Shown here piece by piece: positions 1,280 to 14,673 of a stretch of 64,000 nt of DNA. This DNA comes from Polynucleobacter acidiphobus. Lineage in GTDB: Bacteria; Pseudomonadota; Gammaproteobacteria; Burkholderiales; Burkholderiaceae. Position numbers and translations under genes: made by a program. The stretch covers positions 706,804 to 770,803 of the forward strand of contig NZ_CP023277.1 of NCBI RefSeq assembly GCF_003065385.1, given 5' to 3'. The number at the start of each line of letters is the position of its first letter. The first letter of the stretch is position 1. Below the pieces are notes generated by a model, which had not been told where the DNA came from, did not search any database, and was given only the letters and a program-made list of their open reading frames with translations.

Positions 1280-1660
1280 ATGAAATCATTCTTACAGTTT
1301 TTTATTGGATTAGGGGTGCTTATTGCTACCAGTGTATTTGCTGCCGGTCAGCCAATTACAGCGACACAGCTAGCTGAAATTGAGAAGCAAGGTAAGTCAG
1401 CGGTGATCTCCGTCCATGCGGATTGGTGCTCCACATGCAAAACGCAAGACAAAATCTTGTCAGAGTTCATGAAAAATCCAGAGTATAAAAATGTTACTTT
1501 TTATCAGCTTGAATACGATACTCAGAAAGATCTTTTAAAAACGCTCAAGGTGCGCTCGCAAAGCACAATTATTGTTTTCAAGAATGGTAAAGAAGTTGCA
1601 CGCGCGACAGGGGATACAAAAGAGTCAGCACTTGCGAAGTTAACGAAGCAGGCGATTTGA
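1280..1660 (+). CDS. Periplasmic thioredoxin-family protein
   Basis: This 126-residue protein has an N-terminal signal peptide (cut near VFAAGQ, residue 21-22) and a compact thioredoxin fold. The active-site motif is WCSTC at about residues 49-53. The start has an AGGAG ribosome binding site. The gene overlaps the CcdA-like gene by four bases (ATGA), so the pair resembles a split DsbD: a membrane electron carrier feeding a periplasmic thioredoxin. It appears to be the first gene of an operon running to egtD, so it may keep a periplasmic thiol or selenol reduced. That link is inferred from position only. Confidence 0.85.
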   Translation: MKSFLQFFIGLGVLIATSVFAAGQPITATQLAEIEKQGKSAVISVHADWCSTCKTQDKILSEFMKNPEYKNVTFYQLEYDTQKDLLKTLKVRSQSTIIVFKNGKEVARATGDTKESALAKLTKQAI

Positions 1661-2388
1661 TGGATTTTGGGATTGGGTCATTCCTCTTTGCATTTCTAGC
1701 GGGCGTTTTATCGACTCTATCCCCTTGTGTTTTACCTCTAATTCCCATCATTATTGGGGCAGCCACTAATCAGCATCGACTGGGACCACTTGCGTTGGCA
1801 GGCGGCCTGACATTGTCGTTTGCTGTGATTGGTACGGCCTTGGCTAGTCTTGGGTCTTCGATTGGGATTGCTCAGGATGGATTTCGCTTGTTTGCAGCAA
1901 TCATCATGGGTCTGATTGGTATTGTCTTGATTTCTACACACTTACAAGAGCGTTTTGCGGTTGCCATGTCGGGTATTAGTGGCGCGGGCAACACCTTGTT
2001 ATCCAAAGTGAGTATTGATGGCTTATTTGGCCAGCTTCTGATTGGTATCTTGCTTGGCTTGGTCTGGACTCCCTGCGTAGGGCCCACCCTCGGGGCAGCC
2101 ATTACCCTGGCTAGTCAAGGTAAGGATCTTGAGAAAATCGTATTTGTTATGCTGGTCTTTGGTCTAGGAGCGGGCTTACCACTGGCATTGCTCGGTGTTT
2201 TATCGAGAAATGCTCTGATGACAGCCAAGGGAAAGCTTGGTCACGCAGGTAAGTTTGGTAAACAATTTCTAGGGGGATTTTTGATCCTCATTAGTGCGTT
2301 GGTTTTAACTGGATTAGATAAGCCTGTAGAAGCCTTCCTTCTAAAGCATTCACCCGCGTGGCTTACAGACTTAACCACGATGTTCTAA
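1657..2388 (+). CDS. CcdA/DsbD-beta family membrane thiol-electron carrier
   Basis: The protein has 243 residues and about six membrane helices. Two conserved cysteine sites typical of CcdA/DsbD-beta are present: LSPCVLPLIP at about residues 22-31 and WTPCVGPTLG at about residues 137-146. Such proteins pass electrons from cytoplasmic thioredoxin to periplasmic thioredoxin-like partners. The partner is very likely the preceding gene, which it overlaps by four bases. The next gene follows after about 30 bases on the same strand, suggesting co-transcription with the SRPBCC, ATP-grasp, senA-like and egtD genes. Confidence 0.88.
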   Translation: MMDFGIGSFLFAFLAGVLSTLSPCVLPLIPIIIGAATNQHRLGPLALAGGLTLSFAVIGTALASLGSSIGIAQDGFRLFAAIIMGLIGIVLISTHLQERFAVAMSGISGAGNTLLSKVSIDGLFGQLLIGILLGLVWTPCVGPTLGAAITLASQGKDLEKIVFVMLVFGLGAGLPLALLGVLSRNALMTAKGKLGHAGKFGKQFLGGFLILISALVLTGLDKPVEAFLLKHSPAWLTDLTTMF

Positions 2389-2416
2389 ATCCAGATTTAT
2401 GGATGTTGATTTTGTG

Positions 2417-2980
2417 ATGAGTAATAAAACGATTCGCCATTGCTTGGGTTTAATCGTGCTTTCTTGGACTGGGCTGGCCTCAGCTGCTTCGATTTCAGTT
2501 GAGATTCGTCAAACTGGGGGCGGATTTGATATTCAGGGGAGCTATATGTCACCCCTAACCCAATGTCAGGCCTATGTGTTGTTAACTGATTTTTCCTCCG
2601 ACGAGCCATCCGAGGGAATTAAATCCTCAAAAATTACTCGTTTGTCAGATCAGACTATTCGGGTAGAGCAAAAGGTGGAGGATCGATTTCTATTCTTCAC
2701 CACGAAATTTGAATCCATCATTGATTACACCGAGTATCCAATGCGCGGTATGGATCTCCAACAGGTCAAAGGCTACTTCAAAGAATATCGTGGTAGTTGG
2801 CGCTTAATCCCTAAAGAGGGTGGTACCTTATTTACCTATCAAGCGTTTATCCTGCCCGAATCATCAATCCCGATGTTTCTGATTGAGCATTTCATGAACA
2901 ATCGAGTCCAGCAACGCTTTGAGAAAATGGCCAATCGTGCCAACCGAAAAAAAGACTTCATACCTGAGCGCTGCCAATGA
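2417..2980 (+). CDS. Secreted SRPBCC (START/cyclase-like) protein
   Basis: From the ATG at 2417 the protein has 187 residues with a cleavable signal peptide ending near LASAA; the upstream ATG at 2399 would put charged residues before it and is less likely. The rest looks like the SRPBCC/polyketide-cyclase fold: alternating strands, a conserved-looking RGSWRLIPKEGGTLFTYQ stretch at about 130-147 and a C-terminal amphipathic helix. These folds bind hydrophobic ligands. Its stop overlaps the start of the ATP-grasp gene (ATGA), so the two are probably translated together. The ligand is unknown. Confidence 0.72.
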   Translation: MSNKTIRHCLGLIVLSWTGLASAASISVEIRQTGGGFDIQGSYMSPLTQCQAYVLLTDFSSDEPSEGIKSSKITRLSDQTIRVEQKVEDRFLFFTTKFESIIDYTEYPMRGMDLQQVKGYFKEYRGSWRLIPKEGGTLFTYQAFILPESSIPMFLIEHFMNNRVQQRFEKMANRANRKKDFIPERCQ

Positions 2981-4263
2981 AAAAAATCCTAGTGCTATTT
3001 GTAAAAGACTGGGATCAGCTCGCGATTCAAACCTATCAAGAGAGTAGTCGATACCAGTTCTATTTTGAAGGCTTTGATTTATTCCAGTTCCCGCAAAATG
3101 CTCGATTACTTCATTTTCAGGTCCTTGAGTACATTGGTCATCTGGAACGAAAGTACCGCAAAATTGGACTTGATGGCATTGTCAGCAATCACGAGCAGTA
3201 CGGCGCTTTAATTGCCGCGGTTCTAGCGGAGCGCTTGGGCCTGCCTGGGAATGATCCACGAGCGATCATCGCCTGCCAGCACAAGTATTACAGCCGTATG
3301 ATTCAAGAAAAGGTTGTTCCGGAAGCGGTCCCGCGCTACGCCCCAATTGCATTTCCTCTAAAAAAGGATCAAATCATCGATTTGCCGTACCCATTTTTTG
3401 TGAAGCCGATTAAAGCAACGTATTCAGTTTTAGCAAAAGCCATTCAGCAGCGATCGGAATTGGTTGATCTTCTCCATTTTGGCTATTTTGAGGAATGGAT
3501 TATTCGTCGTCTTGTAAAACCCTTTGCCGATATCATGCCTCTCTATAGTGACCATACTGTTGATCCCAGCGGAATGCTTGCCGAAGAAATCATGATTGGG
3601 GATCAAATCAATATTGATGGCTATTGCCATCAGGGCCAAGTATTTTTTCTGGGAACAATTGATGAAGTGATGTATCCCGGCACTAACGCCTTCATGCGTT
3701 TTGAATATCCATCGCAGTTATCGCCATCGATTCAAGAGCGCGCCAAGACTATCACTAAAAAAGTACTTGAAGCCATTCATTATCAGCATGGATTTTTTAA
3801 TATTGAATTCATTTACAACAAGAGTAATGATCAACTTAATATCATTGAAATTAATCCTCGGATGGCATCTCAGCTGGTTAATTTATACCAGCGGGTAGAT
3901 GGCTATAACCCATACGACATTCTTTTTGAACTCGCAGTTGGAGAAGAGCCAAAAGTAAGGCAAGAACCGTCGCAATTTCAATCGGCTGCCAGCTTTATTT
4001 TTCGGAAGTTTCATGAGCCCGCAGCCCAAAGTATTCCGACGTCAGACCAGATCCAACAAGCTCTCGTACCTTACCCGGATGCCAATCTGATGCTCTACTT
4101 CAAAAAGGGATCGCAATTAAAGCGGGAGTTGAAATGGCTAGGAAGTTATCGGTATGCCGTCCTCAATCTTGGCGGAATCAATCGAAGTGATCTTTTTGAG
4201 CGATGTCGGTCAATTTCCCATAGACTGCAGTTTGATTATCCATTTGAAGCAAACATTACATGA
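2977..4263 (+). CDS. ATP-grasp domain protein, probable carboxylate-amine ligase
   Basis: This 428-residue cytoplasmic protein has an N-terminal Rossmann-like domain (about 1-100) and an ATP-grasp core (about 105-310). Visible signatures are FFVKP near 138 (ATP-binding lysine), EEIMIGDQINIDGY near 208-221 and NIEFIYN..IIEINPRM near 275-294, with the acidic and Asn metal ligands of the family. ATP-grasp ligases join a carboxylate to an amine or thiol through an acyl-phosphate. The gene overlaps its neighbours by four bases on both sides, so it is a member of the senA/egtD operon. It is not GshA/EgtA, which has a different fold. The substrate is unknown; a hercynine- or selenoneine-derived compound is only a hypothesis. 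Confidence 0.83.
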   Translation: MKKILVLFVKDWDQLAIQTYQESSRYQFYFEGFDLFQFPQNARLLHFQVLEYIGHLERKYRKIGLDGIVSNHEQYGALIAAVLAERLGLPGNDPRAIIACQHKYYSRMIQEKVVPEAVPRYAPIAFPLKKDQIIDLPYPFFVKPIKATYSVLAKAIQQRSELVDLLHFGYFEEWIIRRLVKPFADIMPLYSDHTVDPSGMLAEEIMIGDQINIDGYCHQGQVFFLGTIDEVMYPGTNAFMRFEYPSQLSPSIQERAKTITKKVLEAIHYQHGFFNIEFIYNKSNDQLNIIEINPRMASQLVNLYQRVDGYNPYDILFELAVGEEPKVRQEPSQFQSAASFIFRKFHEPAAQSIPTSDQIQQALVPYPDANLMLYFKKGSQLKRELKWLGSYRYAVLNLGGINRSDLFERCRSISHRLQFDYPFEANIT

Positions 4264-5402
4264 CGCAATCCGTGATTCCTGATTACTTGCGATACACCCC
4301 ATATCCTAGTCAAGCAACGCTGCTGACTTGGCTTGGGGATTCAAATTCCTTGACCAGGCATATCCTGCAAAATCTGCAAGCCGGGCAAGAATCGGTTCCA
4401 GAGCAGGAGATTCTAAATCCTCCTCATTGGGAGTTCGGCCATATCAGCTGGTTTCATGAGTTTTGGGTTCATCGACGCGGATTAGAGACCAATCAATCCC
4501 GGCTTTCCAACGCGGATGGATTGTTTAATTCATCACTGGTATCGCATCGTTCGCGCTGGGGACTTCGGATTCCTGATCTCGATACACTTTTTACCTATAA
4601 CCAAGCAACATTTGAGCGCACCGCTGATCTATTGGGGCGACCTTTAGACAATGAACAGCTGTACTTCATTACGCTATCGATTTTTCATCAGGATATGCAT
4701 AATGAGGCTTTTGCCTATATGTGGCAAACCCTTGGCTATCCTCAACCCTTCATGCCAAACCATCAAAGTATGAACCCCCAAATTCCAGAGCGTGATCTGG
4801 AGTTTTCTGGCCAAACCCGACAATTTGGATCCCAGTTAGGTGAAGGCTTTGTATTTGACAACGAAAAGTGGGCCCACCCAATTCAACTCAAGCCTTTTTC
4901 AATCGCATCCCATCCGGTGACAAATGGCGAATATCTGGAGTTTTTACAATCTCAATCCAATCAGTTGGAGACTTGGATCCCCCGCTACTGGAAGCAGGAT
5001 GCTGGTCAATGGTATGAACGCTATTTTGATCAATGGCAAATTTTGCAAGAAAATATGCCTGTGCGACATGTTCGGCATGATCAGGCTCAGAGTTATTGTG
5101 AGTGGCGCCATCGACGACTACCTACGGAGCATGAACTGACGGTTTTGTATTCTAGCGGGGCGAATACCTATCAATCCTCAGGGCTATGGGAATGGAGCAG
5201 TAGCGTTTTTCAACCGTTCCCAGGCTTTACTGAAGACCCATACCGAGATTATTCGAGGCCATGGTTTGATGGTCGTCATCAAGTCTTGAAGGGTTGGAGT
5301 ACTTATACGCCAGAGCGTCTGCGCCGTGCGGCGTTTCGTAATTTTTATCAGCCCCAGCGCGCAGACATGTTTTGTGGATTTCGTACCTGTTTAATCGAGT
5401 GA
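4260..5402 (+). CDS. senA: EgtB/SenA-family non-haem iron oxygenase (probable selenoneine synthase)
   Basis: The 380-residue protein has an N-terminal DinB-like domain and a C-terminal formylglycine-generating-enzyme-like domain, the architecture of EgtB and SenA. The three-histidine iron site is visible: PPHWEFGHISWFHEFW at about 54-69 and HQDMHNEA at about 143-150. The C-terminal half carries HPVTNGEY, RLPTEHE and the end motif FRNFYQPQRADMFCGFRTC. These enzymes form a C-S or C-Se bond on hercynine. The SenA call, rather than EgtB, rests on a SenB-like gene 900 bases away and the absence of EgtA and EgtC genes nearby. It overlaps the ATP-grasp gene by four bases and egtD follows one base after its stop. 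Confidence 0.78.
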   Translation: MTQSVIPDYLRYTPYPSQATLLTWLGDSNSLTRHILQNLQAGQESVPEQEILNPPHWEFGHISWFHEFWVHRRGLETNQSRLSNADGLFNSSLVSHRSRWGLRIPDLDTLFTYNQATFERTADLLGRPLDNEQLYFITLSIFHQDMHNEAFAYMWQTLGYPQPFMPNHQSMNPQIPERDLEFSGQTRQFGSQLGEGFVFDNEKWAHPIQLKPFSIASHPVTNGEYLEFLQSQSNQLETWIPRYWKQDAGQWYERYFDQWQILQENMPVRHVRHDQAQSYCEWRHRRLPTEHELTVLYSSGANTYQSSGLWEWSSSVFQPFPGFTEDPYRDYSRPWFDGRHQVLKGWSTYTPERLRRAAFRNFYQPQRADMFCGFRTCLIE

Positions 5403-5403
5403 T

Positions 5404-6333
5404 ATGACATTGGCAATCAAAAGCAAAATTTTCCAAGAAATTGTTGATGGCTTACAAGCGAATCCGGCTTCAATTTCCCCAAAGTTTTTTTATGATGAAT
5501 TGGGTTCCAGTCTTTTTCAGGCGATTACCCACCTTGAGGAGTATTACCCAACCCGTGTAGAGCGGGGGATCATGCATTCCAAGCTTGCCGAGATTACAAA
5601 AGCGATTGCTGCAGTTGATGTCATTGTGGAGCTAGGGGCCGGTAATTGCGAAAAGGTTAGGCCGCTATTGGATAGCATTGTGCCTAAACAATATCGAGCC
5701 TTAGATATTTCAGTGGATTTTTTAGAGGCTGCCTTAGCTGATTTACATCAAGATTATCCAGCGATCGATATGCAGGCCATCGCCACGGACATTACAGAAG
5801 AACTCTTATTTACAGATTTACAAGATCAGAAAATACTATTCTTTTATCCTGGTTCATCGATTGGGAACTTTGATCCCCCCGAGGCCTCCCGTTTGTTCTC
5901 AAATCTGGCCAGGGAGTGTCATGGAAGCGGCGGTTTGCTGATTGGGGTTGATTTAATCAAGGACATTCACGTATTAGAGCGAGCTTACAACGATTCCCTG
6001 GGCGTAACCGCAGCATTTAATTTGAACGTGCTACGACAACTTAATCACGTGATCGGAAGTAATTTTTCTATTCCGGATTGGGAGCATTATGCCTTCTTTA
6101 ATCAAACCCGCGATCGCATTGAAATGCATCTTCGAGCCAAATCGGATCAGTTGGTAAGTTGGCCTGGTGGACATCGTCAGTTTTATGCTGGAGAAATGAT
6201 TCATACTGAAAATAGCTATAAATACCCTAATGCTACGTTTCTAAAAATGCTCCAGGAGGCTGGTTTTACTGAAGTGACAGCTTGGACTGATCCAGAGTCT
6301 AATTTCTTAGTCTGTTTTGCTGGATTTAAGTAA
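5404..6333 (+). CDS. egtD: L-histidine N-alpha-methyltransferase EgtD
   Basis: This 309-residue enzyme makes hercynine (N-alpha-trimethylhistidine) from histidine and three S-adenosylmethionine. The N-terminus has the family signature SPKFFYDELGSSLFQAI at about 24-40 and YYPTRVE near 47. The methyltransferase core has ELGAGNCEKVRPLL at about 75-88, FFYPGSSIGNFDP near 147 and IGVDLIKD near 180. Length and motifs fit full-length EgtD. It starts one base after the senA-like stop. Its 3' end overlaps the convergent senB-like gene by 27 bases. Hercynine would be the substrate for the preceding oxygenase. Confidence 0.93.
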   Translation: MTLAIKSKIFQEIVDGLQANPASISPKFFYDELGSSLFQAITHLEEYYPTRVERGIMHSKLAEITKAIAAVDVIVELGAGNCEKVRPLLDSIVPKQYRALDISVDFLEAALADLHQDYPAIDMQAIATDITEELLFTDLQDQKILFFYPGSSIGNFDPPEASRLFSNLARECHGSGGLLIGVDLIKDIHVLERAYNDSLGVTAAFNLNVLRQLNHVIGSNFSIPDWEHYAFFNQTRDRIEMHLRAKSDQLVSWPGGHRQFYAGEMIHTENSYKYPNATFLKMLQEAGFTEVTAWTDPESNFLVCFAGFK

Positions 6334-7275
6334 GCGAGTCACGAGTTTTTGTATAGAAGACCGTTCATGGCCGGGTTGGACAAGCTTTTGTAATTTCTTC
6401 ACTTGATCTTGAAGTTTCTTGTAGAACAATTGATCGGTTTCTGCGCGATGCAGAAGTTTGGCAAGGGCTTTTTCACTGCCAACCGGAAAATATCCCAAAT
6501 AATCTTTCCCAAGCAGCCCACAATTGCCTGCTATCTTTGAGGCAAGGACTGGAACATCTGCGGTAATTGCCTCAGAAACTACATGAGCACCACCTTCCAT
6601 GCGACTGGAGATAACCATGATGTGACTGCGCGCCAGGGTTCTTAGTGTCGTCTGATGACTCACCTTGCCTTGCCAGGTATAGCAACCATATTGTTTGGTG
6701 GCTTGCAACGCGATTTTTTCCATCTCCCCACTCATGGCCATCCCCAAGTGTTGAATAGTGATTTGACTATCGCTATGTAAGTGGGGTAGTGCGCGTACGA
6801 TACAAAAGGGATCTTTCTCAGGGCGAAGATGCCCAATCACACATATCCTGAATTGATCCTTAGGCTTCTGCTGTTTAGGTATCCGAGGTACCGACTGATG
6901 AATAACCGTTACCTTATGATGCCATTTTGCGGGAATGATTCGTAATGCCTCTGTTTGTAAAACTACCAATGCATTTGCTAATACCATCGATTCATGAACT
7001 TCAGGGTGGTTTGCCATATCCCGGTACAGATCGGTGCCTGTCAGAATCAGAATTAAAGGACGATTAGGGTGTGCTAACTTAAATGCATCAATTGATGCAT
7101 GGCTTCGGTAGGCATGTAAGGCAATCAAGAGATCGGCATCTTTTCCAGACCAGGATTCGGTGATGGGGACTTGATAGCCAAGTTGTCTTAAAAAACCTTG
7201 CCATCGTTTGGCGGTCATACGATTACCGTGAAGGCTCCCGGGAGGAGCAGGGGTAACGATTTCGATACGGTGCAT
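6307..7275 (-). CDS. senB: SenB-like selenosugar synthase (GT4-type glycosyltransferase)
   Basis: The protein is about 322 residues from the ATG at 7275; a TTG at 7281 overlaps the MFS stop and is an alternative. It is a two-domain GT-B glycosyltransferase. N-terminal features match my memory of SenB (TIGR04348-like): GNRMTAKRWQGFLRQLGY near 18-35, LLIALHAYRSHASI near 50-63 and LILTGTDLYRD near 76-86. The C-terminal nucleotide-sugar site is EGGAHVVSEAI near 227. SenB makes a selenosugar from a UDP-sugar and selenophosphate, which SenA joins to hercynine. The gene forms an operon with the MFS gene and converges on egtD. No selD/senC homologue is in the window. Confidence 0.78.
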   Translation of the reverse strand: MHRIEIVTPAPPGSLHGNRMTAKRWQGFLRQLGYQVPITESWSGKDADLLIALHAYRSHASIDAFKLAHPNRPLILILTGTDLYRDMANHPEVHESMVLANALVVLQTEALRIIPAKWHHKVTVIHQSVPRIPKQQKPKDQFRICVIGHLRPEKDPFCIVRALPHLHSDSQITIQHLGMAMSGEMEKIALQATKQYGCYTWQGKVSHQTTLRTLARSHIMVISSRMEGGAHVVSEAITADVPVLASKIAGNCGLLGKDYLGYFPVGSEKALAKLLHRAETDQLFYKKLQDQVKKLQKLVQPGHERSSIQKLVTRLLKSSKTD

Positions 7276-7277
7276 AT

Positions 7278-8471
7278 TCAAGACCTATTCTTTGAAATGC
7301 GATTCAGAAAAACAAGCCCCAATACAGGACCCGGCAATAATAACCATGTGATGTAGTGATTCATAAGTGGTAAGACTAGGGTGCTGATTTGAATGGAGAT
7401 CATCGTAATGGTGAAGCCAATCGCATTTTGAATCGTCAATGCAGTACCGACGATTTCGGGAGGGCAGGCTTGAGCTGATAGGGCCGAGAACTGTGGTGAG
7501 TCAGCGACGACACTCATGCCCCAAATAAGCCAAAACAGAATTTGTGCCCATAGTGGTAGCCCAGTAATCCATGGATACAGCAGACAACAGAGACCGGACA
7601 GTGCCAGGGCAGTTGAGGCAACCTTTATGCCACCCACCGATTTGCTAAGCTGCCCTCCAAGGAAACAGCCAAGTGCCCCAACACCGATCACCGAAAATGC
7701 CAACCCAGACAAATCTAAGGGGTTTTGAATGGGATATGTACTGGCAATCAGAAATGGCACCAGTGCCCAGAAGGCATAAAGCTCCCACATATGACCAAAA
7801 TAGCCCAATGCAGATCGACGATATTCGGGGATTGCAAAGAGCTGACGAAAGCCGCTTAGCTTCACCCGCGAGGCGGTACCTAATTTCAGGTGGGGACCAT
7901 CGCCAAGCCAAAAAATAATTGCCATCGCAATGACGGCTAGGAAGGAGGAGAACAGAATTACCTCTTGCCAAGGCCAATCCACACCGAAGAAGCGTGTGGC
8001 ATGTGGGATGGCCGTTCCCAGTGTTAGCATGCCGACCAGTTGAGCAATGCGTGATGATGCCTTCTGGGGATCCCAGGTCATGATCAGTTTCATGCCAATG
8101 GGGTATATGCCTGCTAAACAAATCCCAACCAAGAAGCGCAGCATCGATCCCATCCAGATGCTATCGGCCCAGATAGCAAATGCAGTATTAAATAGTGCAC
8201 CGAGCAGGGCGCAGGCAGCAAAAAGATGGCTGGGCTTAAACCGATCTGCGATGCCGCTTAAAGCAAATACCAAGGTGCCTGCTACAAAACCTAATTGCAC
8301 GGCATTGGTCAAAACACCAATGCCCGCAAGATTAATATCCCATGAATCAATCAAATTATCGGCTACTCCATTGATGGAGAACCATAAAGAAGTGCCCATC
8401 AGCTCGGCAATCACAATCAATAGCGAGGCTAAATTGGGGCTAATCGATCGAGCGGGTTTTGTAATATTCAA
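7278..8471 (-). CDS. MFS transporter, upstream of and overlapping senB
   Basis: This protein of up to 397 residues has about 12 membrane helices and general MFS features, such as the loop after TM2 with SGIADRFKPSH. The first possible start is TTG at 8471 with no clear ribosome binding site; the first internal ATG would remove half of TM1. Its stop overlaps the senB-like gene, so the two are coupled. It sits just behind the katG terminator on the same strand. By position it might import or export selenoneine, hercynine or a precursor, but the sequence gives no substrate. Confidence 0.8.
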   Translation of the reverse strand: MNITKPARSISPNLASLLIVIAELMGTSLWFSINGVADNLIDSWDINLAGIGVLTNAVQLGFVAGTLVFALSGIADRFKPSHLFAACALLGALFNTAFAIWADSIWMGSMLRFLVGICLAGIYPIGMKLIMTWDPQKASSRIAQLVGMLTLGTAIPHATRFFGVDWPWQEVILFSSFLAVIAMAIIFWLGDGPHLKLGTASRVKLSGFRQLFAIPEYRRSALGYFGHMWELYAFWALVPFLIASTYPIQNPLDLSGLAFSVIGVGALGCFLGGQLSKSVGGIKVASTALALSGLCCLLYPWITGLPLWAQILFWLIWGMSVVADSPQFSALSAQACPPEIVGTALTIQNAIGFTITMISIQISTLVLPLMNHYITWLLLPGPVLGLVFLNRISKNRS

Positions 8472-11640: not shown

Positions 11641-12228
11641 ATGAATTCAGAACAGTTACTGCGTTCGTCTTCATTCAAAATTACTCTATCGGTATGCATA
11701 GGACATGCCATGCTAATTGGTTGGATGATGACTGCAATAACTAATCATCGGCCTGAGTCGCCTGCCATCCTTTATGGACAATTGGTTGAGCGCGAGTCGA
11801 ATACGATTCAAAAAACAGTAACTTCGCCTATTCATGCAAAGCAAGATCCCATTAATCAAGCGAGTGTACCGATTGTTGAGAGTAGCCAGGGGATCACAAC
11901 CAGTCAACAGTCAGATAGCAGAAGCCCAAATGTTTCATCTGCACCCATATCCTTACCATCCGCTGCTGACCCTAGGTTCAATAACCCAAAGCCGCCGTAT
12001 CCGATCGCTAGTCGAGAAAACGGCGAGGAGGGCAGGGTATGGCTTTCATTATGCGTATCTGAGCATGGCGCTATCAGTCGCTTGCAATTAGCTCAATCAT
12101 CTGGTCATCCAGCGCTCGATCGTTCGGCCTTGAATACGGTGACTCATTGGAAATTTCATCCGGCGCGCCAAAATGGTGCTGCTATTCCTTACTGTTATCG
12201 ATTGCCTATCGTCTTTGTATTAGCTTAA
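11641..12228 (+). CDS. tonB: TonB-family energy transducer for haem uptake
   Basis: The 195-residue protein has an N-terminal membrane anchor (about residues 12-32), a Ser/Pro/Gln-rich periplasmic linker and a C-terminal TonB domain (about 110-195). The domain shows GRVWLSLCVSEHG, LAQSSGHPALDRSAL and WKFHPARQNG. TonB passes proton-motive-force energy from ExbB/ExbD to outer-membrane receptors; exbB and exbD are not in the window. It begins one base after hemP stops. The linker is short and lacks the long Pro-Glu/Pro-Lys repeats of E. coli TonB. Confidence 0.9.
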   Translation: MNSEQLLRSSSFKITLSVCIGHAMLIGWMMTAITNHRPESPAILYGQLVERESNTIQKTVTSPIHAKQDPINQASVPIVESSQGITTSQQSDSRSPNVSSAPISLPSAADPRFNNPKPPYPIASRENGEEGRVWLSLCVSEHGAISRLQLAQSSGHPALDRSALNTVTHWKFHPARQNGAAIPYCYRLPIVFVLA

Positions 12229-12258
12229 TTTCCATACAAGAAATATTGTCAATAGCAC

Positions 12259-12287
12259 TTGACAATGAGAATCATTCTCATTAAAGT
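12259..12287 (+). promoter_or_regulatory. Fur box overlapping the haem receptor promoter
   Basis: AATGAGAATCATTCTCATT (12264-12282) is a 19-base palindrome, perfect except for its unpaired centre, and fits the Fur 7-1-7 pattern (TGAGAAT-C-ATTCTCA). It overlaps a consensus -35 TTGACA (12259-12264) with a -10 TAAAGT 17 bases downstream (12282-12287). Iron-loaded Fur would repress the receptor and hmuSTUV genes from here. Confidence 0.88.
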
Positions 12288-12369
12288 AGAGATTCGTTTA
12301 AACTAAAAAACGATTATGTAAACGTCACAGCCCGCCGTCGCTAGCTAGTGTCATCAAATTCTAGCGAGC

Positions 12370-14673
12370 ATGAGTCTAAGAAAACACCCATTTGCGGCTA
12401 TTGCAGCCATCACCATGGCGAGTATTGCCATGAGTGCCCATAGTCAGACAGCAACCACTGAAGATGGAAGACCCATTGAACAATCCCGTGGCGAGCGGGG
12501 CGAGGTGGATGTCATTCTGAAAGAGGTTACCGTAACATCGACTCGGTCCCCTCGGAAGGTGGATAACGTACCCAATGTTGTTACCGTAACAACGGCCGAA
12601 GAAATCCAAGAAAAGGGCGACCGGAATATTAAAGACCTTTTTAATAACTCCGTAGATGTTACGGTTCCCCAGCAAACGCAACGTTTCAGTTTGGCTGTCG
12701 GATCTCAGGGGCGGGCAGGAAATGAAAGTATCAATATTCGTGGTCTGCAAGGCAATAATGTTTTACTGCTTGTGGATGGGATTCGGGTGCCAAACGCGTT
12801 CTCGTTTGGGGCCCTATCGGTCGGGCGAGGAAACTTTCTGGATGTTGATGGGTTTCGTCGAGTCGAGGTAGTACGCGGCCCATCGTCAACCCAGTATGGC
12901 AGTGATGGCCTTGCTGGGATTGTGAACTTTCAGACCTTTAATCCAAGTGATTTCATCAAAAAGGGTGAGACTCACGGCGGATTTGCTCGTACCGGCTACT
13001 CGAGCGTCGATACATCTTCGAATACGACGTTTGGCTATGGCGGTATTCAGGACCATTTGCAAGGGATGGTGCTTGGAAACTTTCAAGCTGGCCATCAATA
13101 TCAAAATCAAGGATCCAATAACTCAACCGGCATCACCAGGACGGCGCCCAATCCAGCAGATTACAGCAATTGGTATGTTCTGACTAAGGGATTTGCCCAA
13201 ATCGATCGCAACCAAAAACTGGGCATTACCTATGAGTCTCAAAACGTCACGCAAAACGTGAATAACTTATCGGATTTGGGAACCGGCGGAGGTTGGATTT
13301 CCTTTGGAGGGCCTGGTGGATTTACCTATAACAATGTCGTGACATCCACCAGCCAAGATAAGACCACCCGCAATCGCGTCTCGGGTGAGTACGACTTTAA
13401 GGACAGTGGGGCGCTGTATGTTCAAAAAGCCAATGTCATGGTGTATTACCAAGATGCAGATGTCACTCAAAATGCCTACCAGCAGCAAGTTGGCAATTCA
13501 CGTCTCTCATCATGGCGCAGCCGCAACAACACCTATAGCCAAGATACCTACGGCATCAATACGACTCTAGAGAGTAATACCACCAGTATCGTCAATCAGC
13601 GACTGACCTATGGATTTGATTGGAGTTCTTCACGTATCTCGAGTCAACTCAATGCGGCGGGTAATGGAAGCTCAATTACACCCGCACCCAAATCAACTTA
13701 TAACTTAGGCGGCGCGTTTTTGCAAAGTGAAATGGAGTTTAATCAAGTGAGTGTGATTACAGCACTTCGCTATGATAGTTACTCGATTACACCAGTTACT
13801 GGTTCATTGCCATCGAACTCCGGATCAGCAGTATCCCCTCGAATTGGGGCTATCTGGAATATAGCTCGCGAGTTTCGTCCGTTTGCAAACTGGGGAACTG
13901 GATTTACTGCGCCTACACCGGATCAAACGCTATCTTATTTTGCGGGTAGCGGATATACCAACATCCCAAATCCCAATCTAAAACCGCAAACTGGCAATGG
14001 CTTTGAGGTCGGTGCTCGCGGTCAGCTTCAGCAGTTTCGTTATCAGGCATCGGGGTACGCAAACTATTACAAAGACTTTATCTCTCAGGTTAATTACTTA
14101 GGTTCGTATAACGGTAGTGCACCTCAGACCTTGTATCAATTTCAGAACTTATCTAACGTCAATATTTGGGGATGGGATGTTCGAACGGATTGGGCGTTTG
14201 CTCAGGGTTGGCAGGCGAATGCAGCGATGGCCTATAGCTATGGTGAGCAAACCCAAAATGGGATTTCAGCACCGCTAAATACGATTCAACCTTTGCGCGC
14301 CATTGCAGGATTGCGGTATGACGCTAGTACTTGGGGAGCGTTTGCCAATGTCATTTGGAATCAGGGTAAATCGGCTGATCGTGTGAACTTTAATAACGCT
14401 ACCGGTGGTACAGCCAATCAATTTTTGTCGCCCACATCCACCGTTCTTAATCTGACCGGTTATTGGAAGCCTCTTAAAAAACTAACGATCAATGCCAATC
14501 TCAATAATGTGTTCAACACCACCTATTGGAACTGGTCGGATGTTCAAGGTTCGGTTTTAACTCAAAACCGAGCAGCGGCTGGCGGATTTTCGGGGTACAA
14601 CGCCCAAGCTGCTCAACAATCAGCCACGGCAGCGCCGCGGAACTGGCAAATCTCAGCTCGTTATGACTTTTAA
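12370..14673 (+). CDS. TonB-dependent haem/haemoglobin receptor
   Basis: The 767-residue outer-membrane receptor has a signal peptide (cut near AHSQ, residue 26), a TonB-box-like stretch KEVTVTSTRSPRKVD near 51-65, a plug domain (about 65-190, with NIRGLQGNNVLLLVDGIRVP) and a 22-strand-type barrel ending in aromatic F. The haem-receptor motif is recognisable as GFTAPTP (FRAP box) and NPNLKPQTG near 515-545. It lies behind a Fur box and is followed nine bases later by hmuS, so it imports haem for the HmuTUV transporter. Symbols hmuR, bhuR or hutA would all be possible. Confidence 0.93.
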   Translation: MSLRKHPFAAIAAITMASIAMSAHSQTATTEDGRPIEQSRGERGEVDVILKEVTVTSTRSPRKVDNVPNVVTVTTAEEIQEKGDRNIKDLFNNSVDVTVPQQTQRFSLAVGSQGRAGNESINIRGLQGNNVLLLVDGIRVPNAFSFGALSVGRGNFLDVDGFRRVEVVRGPSSTQYGSDGLAGIVNFQTFNPSDFIKKGETHGGFARTGYSSVDTSSNTTFGYGGIQDHLQGMVLGNFQAGHQYQNQGSNNSTGITRTAPNPADYSNWYVLTKGFAQIDRNQKLGITYESQNVTQNVNNLSDLGTGGGWISFGGPGGFTYNNVVTSTSQDKTTRNRVSGEYDFKDSGALYVQKANVMVYYQDADVTQNAYQQQVGNSRLSSWRSRNNTYSQDTYGINTTLESNTTSIVNQRLTYGFDWSSSRISSQLNAAGNGSSITPAPKSTYNLGGAFLQSEMEFNQVSVITALRYDSYSITPVTGSLPSNSGSAVSPRIGAIWNIAREFRPFANWGTGFTAPTPDQTLSYFAGSGYTNIPNPNLKPQTGNGFEVGARGQLQQFRYQASGYANYYKDFISQVNYLGSYNGSAPQTLYQFQNLSNVNIWGWDVRTDWAFAQGWQANAAMAYSYGEQTQNGISAPLNTIQPLRAIAGLRYDASTWGAFANVIWNQGKSADRVNFNNATGGTANQFLSPTSTVLNLTGYWKPLKKLTINANLNNVFNTTYWNWSDVQGSVLTQNRAAAGGFSGYNAQAAQQSATAAPRNWQISARYDF

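Follow-up and report, generated by a model that had tools for sequence, protein, structure and literature searches.

A Polynucleobacter selenoneine gene cluster extended by a redox module and a candidate ATP-grasp ligase

Gene layout of the locus

We analysed a 64,000-nucleotide stretch of DNA from the freshwater bacterium Polynucleobacter acidiphobus (the window; bases 706804-770803 of contig NZ_CP023277.1, a single-contig 1.85-Mb genome, G000) that carries a gene cluster assigned to the selenoneine pathway, in which senA, egtD and senB are accompanied by genes for a thioredoxin-fold protein, a CcdA-type membrane protein, an SRPBCC protein and an ATP-grasp ligase. Other G and L numbers denote compared genomes and loci. 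All eight genes of the region were found within 1280-8471 of the window: trx, ccdA, SRPBCC, ATP-grasp, senA and egtD follow one another on the plus strand, and senB and an MFS gene lie on the minus strand.

1280..1660, plus strand: trx, thioredoxin-fold protein with a WCSTC motif (PF00085, 52.1 bits; aligned with 10 relatives)
1660..2388, plus strand: ccdA, DsbD/CcdA-type membrane protein (PF02683, 52.3 bits)
2399..2980, plus strand: SRPBCC (polyketide cyclase/START-like) protein (PF03364, 26.9 bits, cut-off 23.4)
2977..4263, plus strand: ATP-grasp ligase of an uncharacterised family (PF13535, 38.5 bits; alignment; co-occurrence with SenB)
4260..5402, plus strand: senA, SenA-type selenoneine synthase, HX3HXE motif at residue 143 (NF041186, 391.5 bits, cut-off 420; tree)
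5404..6333, plus strand: egtD, L-histidine N-alpha-methyltransferase (hercynine synthase; TIGR03438, 355.7 bits, cut-off 290.9)
6307..7281, minus strand: senB, selenosugar synthase (TIGR04348, 398.8 bits, cut-off 300; EGGAHV motif)
7278..8471, minus strand: MFS transporter gene, upstream of and codirectional with senB (PF07690, 71.8 bits)

Going by relatives, ccdA likelier starts at ATG 1660 than at the listed TTG 1657, and it shares 1-4 bases with trx, the number varying with the start codon assumed. The gap between ccdA and the SRPBCC gene is 10 bases, or 28 if the latter begins at ATG 2417; 4-base overlaps join the SRPBCC gene to the ATP-grasp gene and the ATP-grasp gene to senA, and a single base separates senA from egtD. 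The initial annotation had proposed a six-gene operon beginning with the trx/ccdA pair, and these overlaps (1-4 bases) and gaps (1-28 bases) bear it out: the arrangement supports one tight operon from trx to egtD, convergent with senB, with which egtD overlaps by 27 bases. Within the region, sites resembling promoters or terminators were no commoner than in shuffled sequences, and the same scan found none before trx. katG and the MFS gene flank a terminator-like hairpin (8509-8486). Judged by eye, the trx product and the SRPBCC protein both begin with a signal-peptide-like stretch, and the former is probably periplasmic.

Assignment to the selenoneine pathway

In the selenoneine pathway, SelD makes selenophosphate, SenB the selenosugar and EgtD hercynine, and SenA joins them towards selenoneine. 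SenB and EgtD of the window both exceed the curated cut-offs of their models. The initial annotation would have been contradicted by a SenB-like protein outside the SenB clade; with its score on TIGR04348 the protein lies within the family. Numbered from TTG 7281, it has N20, T23, K156 within GHLRPEKDP, and EGGAHV from position 229. In the Variovorax enzyme, published work singles out N20, T23, K158 and the EGGAHV motif with E231 as important; in our own reading, K156 of the window corresponds to K158 of Variovorax.

For the oxygenase, the profile scores were less straightforward, and two of them weigh against a SenA assignment. The window protein stays below the equivalog cut-off of NF041186, and a true EgtB (L041:7085-8368; 599.8 bits on the EgtB model) reaches 388.4 bits on the SenA model. 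Because a true EgtB scores similarly, the NF041186 score alone cannot decide between SenA and EgtB. On the same model, three other full-length SenA proteins of the genus scored 381-399, a partial one (G054) 221.5, and five from other families 423-508. On the EgtB model TIGR03440, the window protein scored 182.4 bits, about half of the cut-off of 360. In a tree of 50 proteins, built by a quick method with support from the Shimodaira-Hasegawa-like approximate likelihood ratio test (SH-aLRT) only, the SenA rows, including that of the window, were split from four EgtB-type rows (three of them labelled by position and similarity, without a profile) with an SH-aLRT of 100; the 32 Polynucleobacter SenA rows formed a single clade. 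An identity of the oxygenase as EgtB was rejected on the low score on the EgtB model and the placement with SenA in the tree.

The sole selD over cut-off in the window genome (G000:C1:691140-692069) encodes a protein with a GCGCK motif and lies about 16 kb upstream of trx, not inside the cluster; in the relative G181, selD is about 10 kb upstream. SelU was found in 13/13 genomes of the genus searched, and SelA in 0/13. We rejected the notion that selenophosphate is reserved for this pathway in the window genome, since SelU is encoded there. One could suppose that the oxygenase is an EgtB, that the product is ergothioneine, and that the SenB homologue has another role, with selenophosphate going to SelU; the sub-threshold SenA score and the position of selD outside the cluster would agree with this. 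We consider it highly improbable, given a SenB above its cut-off with the reported residues, an oxygenase at half of the EgtB cut-off and separated from EgtB-type proteins in the tree, and selD located between senA and egtD in 14/14 compared loci of the same genus that hold all three genes. The locus shares with the EgtB/EgtD ergothioneine pathway an EgtD and an oxygenase of the SenA/EgtB superfamily, but differs in having SenB and in an oxygenase outside the EgtB branch. SenB, the SenA tree and a selD with the GCGCK motif thus support selenoneine, not ergothioneine, as the pathway, as the initial annotation had held.

The sen cluster of Variovorax paradoxus consists of senA, senB and senC, according to PMC9814287, PMC10702425 and PMC10891094; the founding Nature 2022 paper is cited here through these three articles and PMC10903977. 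As in V. paradoxus, a SenA-type gene and senB are neighbours in the window and SelD (SenC) is encoded in the genome. Unlike in V. paradoxus, the operon includes egtD, selD lies at a distance of 16 kb, and trx, ccdA, SRPBCC and ATP-grasp genes precede senA.

Co-occurrence of the ATP-grasp family with SenB

E277, E291, N293 and R295 were invariant in 32 members of the ATP-grasp family, and we take these residues, from the superfamily at large, to have ATP/metal roles. A C-terminal KWLGSYRY stretch is characteristic of the same 32 sequences. Matches in the PDB were partial and remote (carbamoyl-phosphate synthase, the L-amino acid ligase BL00235, and BacD). With BL00235 and BacD the window protein shares remote profile similarity over the ATP-grasp domain and a conserved ExNPR-type motif, whereas the KWLGSYRY stretch is its own and the similarity is very low. 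Among the 120 listed of at least 3281 matches, from a search that scored 8000 candidates, the source names were 'ATP-grasp domain', 'ATP-grasp domain-containing protein', 'biotin carboxylase' and 'hypothetical protein'. Searches of the open-licence literature found no papers on selenoneine together with ATP-grasp, or on selenoneine together with Polynucleobacter; ergothioneine together with ATP-grasp gave four.

We compared the presence of the ATP-grasp family and, to represent the sen genes, of SenB in 399 genomes of the order, with E<=1e-50 (our own threshold) defining a strong ATP-grasp match and E<=1e-40 defining SenB presence, at most five candidates being scored per genome. A strong ATP-grasp match was present in 44/399 genomes, and 42 of these 44 were SenB-positive compared with 129/399 overall (Fisher p 7e-21); 40 of the 42 SenB proteins exceed the curated cut-off. 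Counted per genus, 23/24 were SenB-positive versus 61/158 (p 2.5e-10). Genomes with only weaker matches to other ATP-grasps were SenB-positive in 7/20 cases (p 0.48). The two SenB-negative exceptions were G243, a 130-contig assembly with the match on a 3-kb contig, and G485, with a match of 31% identity. That the ATP-grasp family is nested within SenB-carrying genomes is the strongest new point of this analysis.

Physical linkage was seen outside the genus as well. In 5/41 other genomes of the order with both genes (G063, G358, G453, G446 and G518), the ATP-grasp gene lies <=10 kb from senB, with 0.21 expected from genome sizes (p 2e-6). Among 26 ATP-grasp loci of other families, five contain senA, senB or egtD (L040, L177, L183, L185, L186), and L184 (G518) has only a selD piece at the locus edge. 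A separate collection of 75 loci outside the genus, many of them short, overlaps with the two preceding sets (e.g. G453 is both L177 and L215) and has six with senA, senB, egtD or a SelD-type gene (L215, L218, L228, L232, L259, L262); L208 holds a putative selenate-binding protein instead, and in the remaining 68 none was counted. Some tblastn queries were stop-to-stop frames running into opposite-strand neighbours, and some 'senA' or 'selD' matches exceed the gene length; 'senA' matches over senB (L215, L259) were treated as artefacts, and L210 and L213 were excluded from the linkage count. A selD beside the ATP-grasp gene in L170, L173 and L175 was dropped: the corresponding matches (L210, L213) were 25-26% identical with 65-69 bits and presumably represent a thiamine-phosphate kinase paralogue. 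Separately, a SelD-like gene 41% identical to the SelD query lies near the ATP-grasp gene in L218 (11224-12405) and L284 (10592-11686), both outside the genus.

In 87 loci, with neighbour groups built by similarity and one representative of each profiled, the recurrent neighbours of the ATP-grasp gene were a methyltransferase (21), a TVP38-FAD oxidoreductase (15), DUF547 (15), DUF3047 (13) and a YHS seleno-domain protein (11). A set of betaproteobacterial loci (L258, L257, L254, L249, L247 and others) shows DUF547 and the TVP38-FAD oxidoreductase upstream of the ATP-grasp gene and DUF3047 downstream.

The four-gene module in Polynucleobacter and its possible role

Within the genus, the ATP-grasp gene was found in 10/186 genomes and a SenA match >120 bits, broken or partial ones counted, in 55/186; nine of the ten ATP-grasp genomes are among the 55 (p 8e-5). 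In the tenth, G140, the contig ends inside the ATP-grasp gene, so adjacency to senA could not be judged; its upstream genes are the same as in the window, with 92-95% identity. The ATP-grasp gene adjoins senA in four genomes: the window genome, G181 (both of its copies, see below), G184, where eleven genes including selD and a transporter lie on one strand with senB convergent, and G054, whose contig ends inside senA. The module-linked SenA proteins stand at three places in the tree (window with G181; G184; G054), which means either that the linkage is old and has been lost many times, or that it has several origins. At E<=1e-30, no ccdA homologue was found in the 36 other genomes of the genus searched, all of which lack the ATP-grasp gene. 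Distant SRPBCC paralogues occur in 29/61 genomes, that of the window included, and are common in the genus; cysteines specific to the SRPBCC protein of the module were rejected, as both are conserved in the paralogues too.

The usual cluster of the genus is senA-selD-egtD with convergent senB. The window shares with it senA, egtD, convergent senB and the SenA clade. In contrast, the usual clusters have no four-gene module before senA (except G184, and G054 as far as the contig runs), and they keep selD inside and often a putative selenate-transporter protein, neither of which applies to the window. A TIGR04553-like putative selenate-transporter binding protein is present in 12/17 usual sen loci checked in the genus (query 367.5 bits, cut-off 250) and was not found in the window or the preceding 19.6 kb (L087). 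Together with a PhnCDE-like ABC transporter, the TIGR04553 'putative selenate' binding protein occurs in or near many Polynucleobacter sen clusters (L135:3559-6874; further L137, L078, L080, L073, L069, L079, L084, L085, L072, L075, L070 and L140); the set is also near the ATP-grasp gene in L187, L208, L259 and L040.

In G181, a block of 5,949 bases that extends from trx through senB, without the MFS gene, is present in two copies of 92.3% identity. The seven genes of the window thus occur twice in this relative in the same order (protein identity 86-95%), which argues that the cluster is beyond chance. Pairwise dN/dS among the window and both G181 copies was 0.04-0.22 for each of the seven genes; all seven are under purifying selection. 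The MFS gene lies beside senB in one of the two copies, outside the duplicated block. Its status as a firm member of the unit was for this reason not upheld, and we regard it as a neighbour whose membership is unproven. About 6 kb from the second copy is a gene that by eye resembles a tyrosine recombinase.

We interpret the locus as a selenoneine cluster, itself well supported, which a four-gene module extends; the ligase in this module would probably form amides of selenoneine or hercynine. For this reading as a whole we estimate a probability of about 0.5. Several observations count against it. The ATP-grasp gene is apart from senA in 5/10 genomes of the genus (G103; G045; G118; G060, without SRPBCC beside ATP-grasp; and G138, judged on the visible side only). 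The loci scanned outside the genus showed no trx, ccdA or SRPBCC gene alongside ATP-grasp, and in G071, which belongs to another family, a related pair of trx and ccdA (the latter 55% identical) occurs with no ATP-grasp. The order-level co-occurrence statistics ignore kinship above genus, and 87/129 SenB genomes have no strong ATP-grasp match. Conservation of the extra genes with senA and egtD, on which the initial annotation had relied, accordingly stands in part: the module adjoins senA in 4/10 carriers within the genus, is apart in five, and outside the genus is represented near sen genes by the ATP-grasp gene alone.

Separation from senA in half of the carriers and the other recurrent neighbours of the ATP-grasp gene are also what one would expect if the four upstream genes were an independent redox/envelope operon, sometimes located beside sen, and if the co-occurrence with SenB, uncorrected for kinship above genus, came from shared lifestyle or lineage. 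We regard this as unlikely, because the association with SenB persists at the level of genera and other ATP-grasps stay at background, senB is linked in 5/41 other genomes, and in G181 the set of seven genes was copied or acquired as a whole, with both copies kept. A different role for the ligase would be to make a helper of the pathway, e.g. a small peptide thiol serving as reductant at the selenenic-acid stage that follows SenA, and not to modify selenoneine itself. L-amino acid ligases form dipeptides, and the module includes thiol-redox proteins. According to PMC10702425, the intermediate sheds its sugar spontaneously and is then reduced, with no enzyme named for this final step. Such a helper seems decidedly unlikely to us, as the ATP-grasp gene is missing from 87 of the 129 SenB genomes, and the site of action of Trx and CcdA appears to be outside the cytoplasm, where SenA is not expected.

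Returning to modification of the product, the ATP-grasp protein occurs almost only where the pathway exists and yet is dispensable for it, and would for that reason most simply act on selenoneine or hercynine. Each compound offers a free carboxylate but lacks a free amine, and would therefore be the activated acid, with some amine as acceptor. The ligase would activate the carboxylate and join it to this amine, for example an amino acid. More speculatively, the SRPBCC protein might bind the product in the periplasm, and Trx and CcdA might pass electrons across the membrane, e.g. keeping the selenol reduced; a periplasmic step is indicated by the signal-peptide-like starts of Trx and SRPBCC and by CcdA as a membrane electron carrier. 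The window resembles DsbD/CcdA-thioredoxin electron transfer in pairing a free-standing CcdA-like membrane protein with a thioredoxin-fold protein, and differs from such systems in that the pair is tied to a selenoneine operon. The initial annotation had suggested an exported, membrane-linked or modified product; the way in which the ATP-grasp family falls within the SenB-carrying genomes favours modification, whereas export or membrane linkage would rest on starts judged by eye and on CcdA.

Bacteria with the ATP-grasp gene may thus turn selenoneine into a further selenium compound. It is possible, and we propose it tentatively, that the ligase family represents a widespread, undescribed branch of selenium metabolism, which would couple the carboxylate of selenoneine or hercynine to an amine to give selenoneine amides, and to which the Polynucleobacter module would add periplasmic binding and thiol-redox proteins. 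Should this hold, about a third (42/129) of the sampled SenB-carrying genomes of the order would use selenoneine as an intermediate and not as the final product. A commentary (PMC9814287) quotes the discoverers of sen as expecting further microbial selenometabolites, and a 2026 review (PMC13188914) names two so far, selenoneine and ovoselenol. A ligase family nested in SenB-carrying genomes would offer a gene-led route to another.

Some minor features were noted at these loci. Exported proteins that look similar by eye are encoded after selD in the window genome and before the trx module in G045 and G184 (L087:3900-4541, L088:6324-6947, L135:12777-13418); these shared neighbours hint that selD and the module once lay closer together. 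Upstream of the module in G054 is the end of a betaine-type ABC permease, judged by eye (L089:117-377). In L142 (G134), the matches to senA and to senB are each split over several frames, and the sen cluster looks decayed. Downstream of katG, window positions 11641-14673 encode a TonB-like protein and a TonB-dependent receptor.

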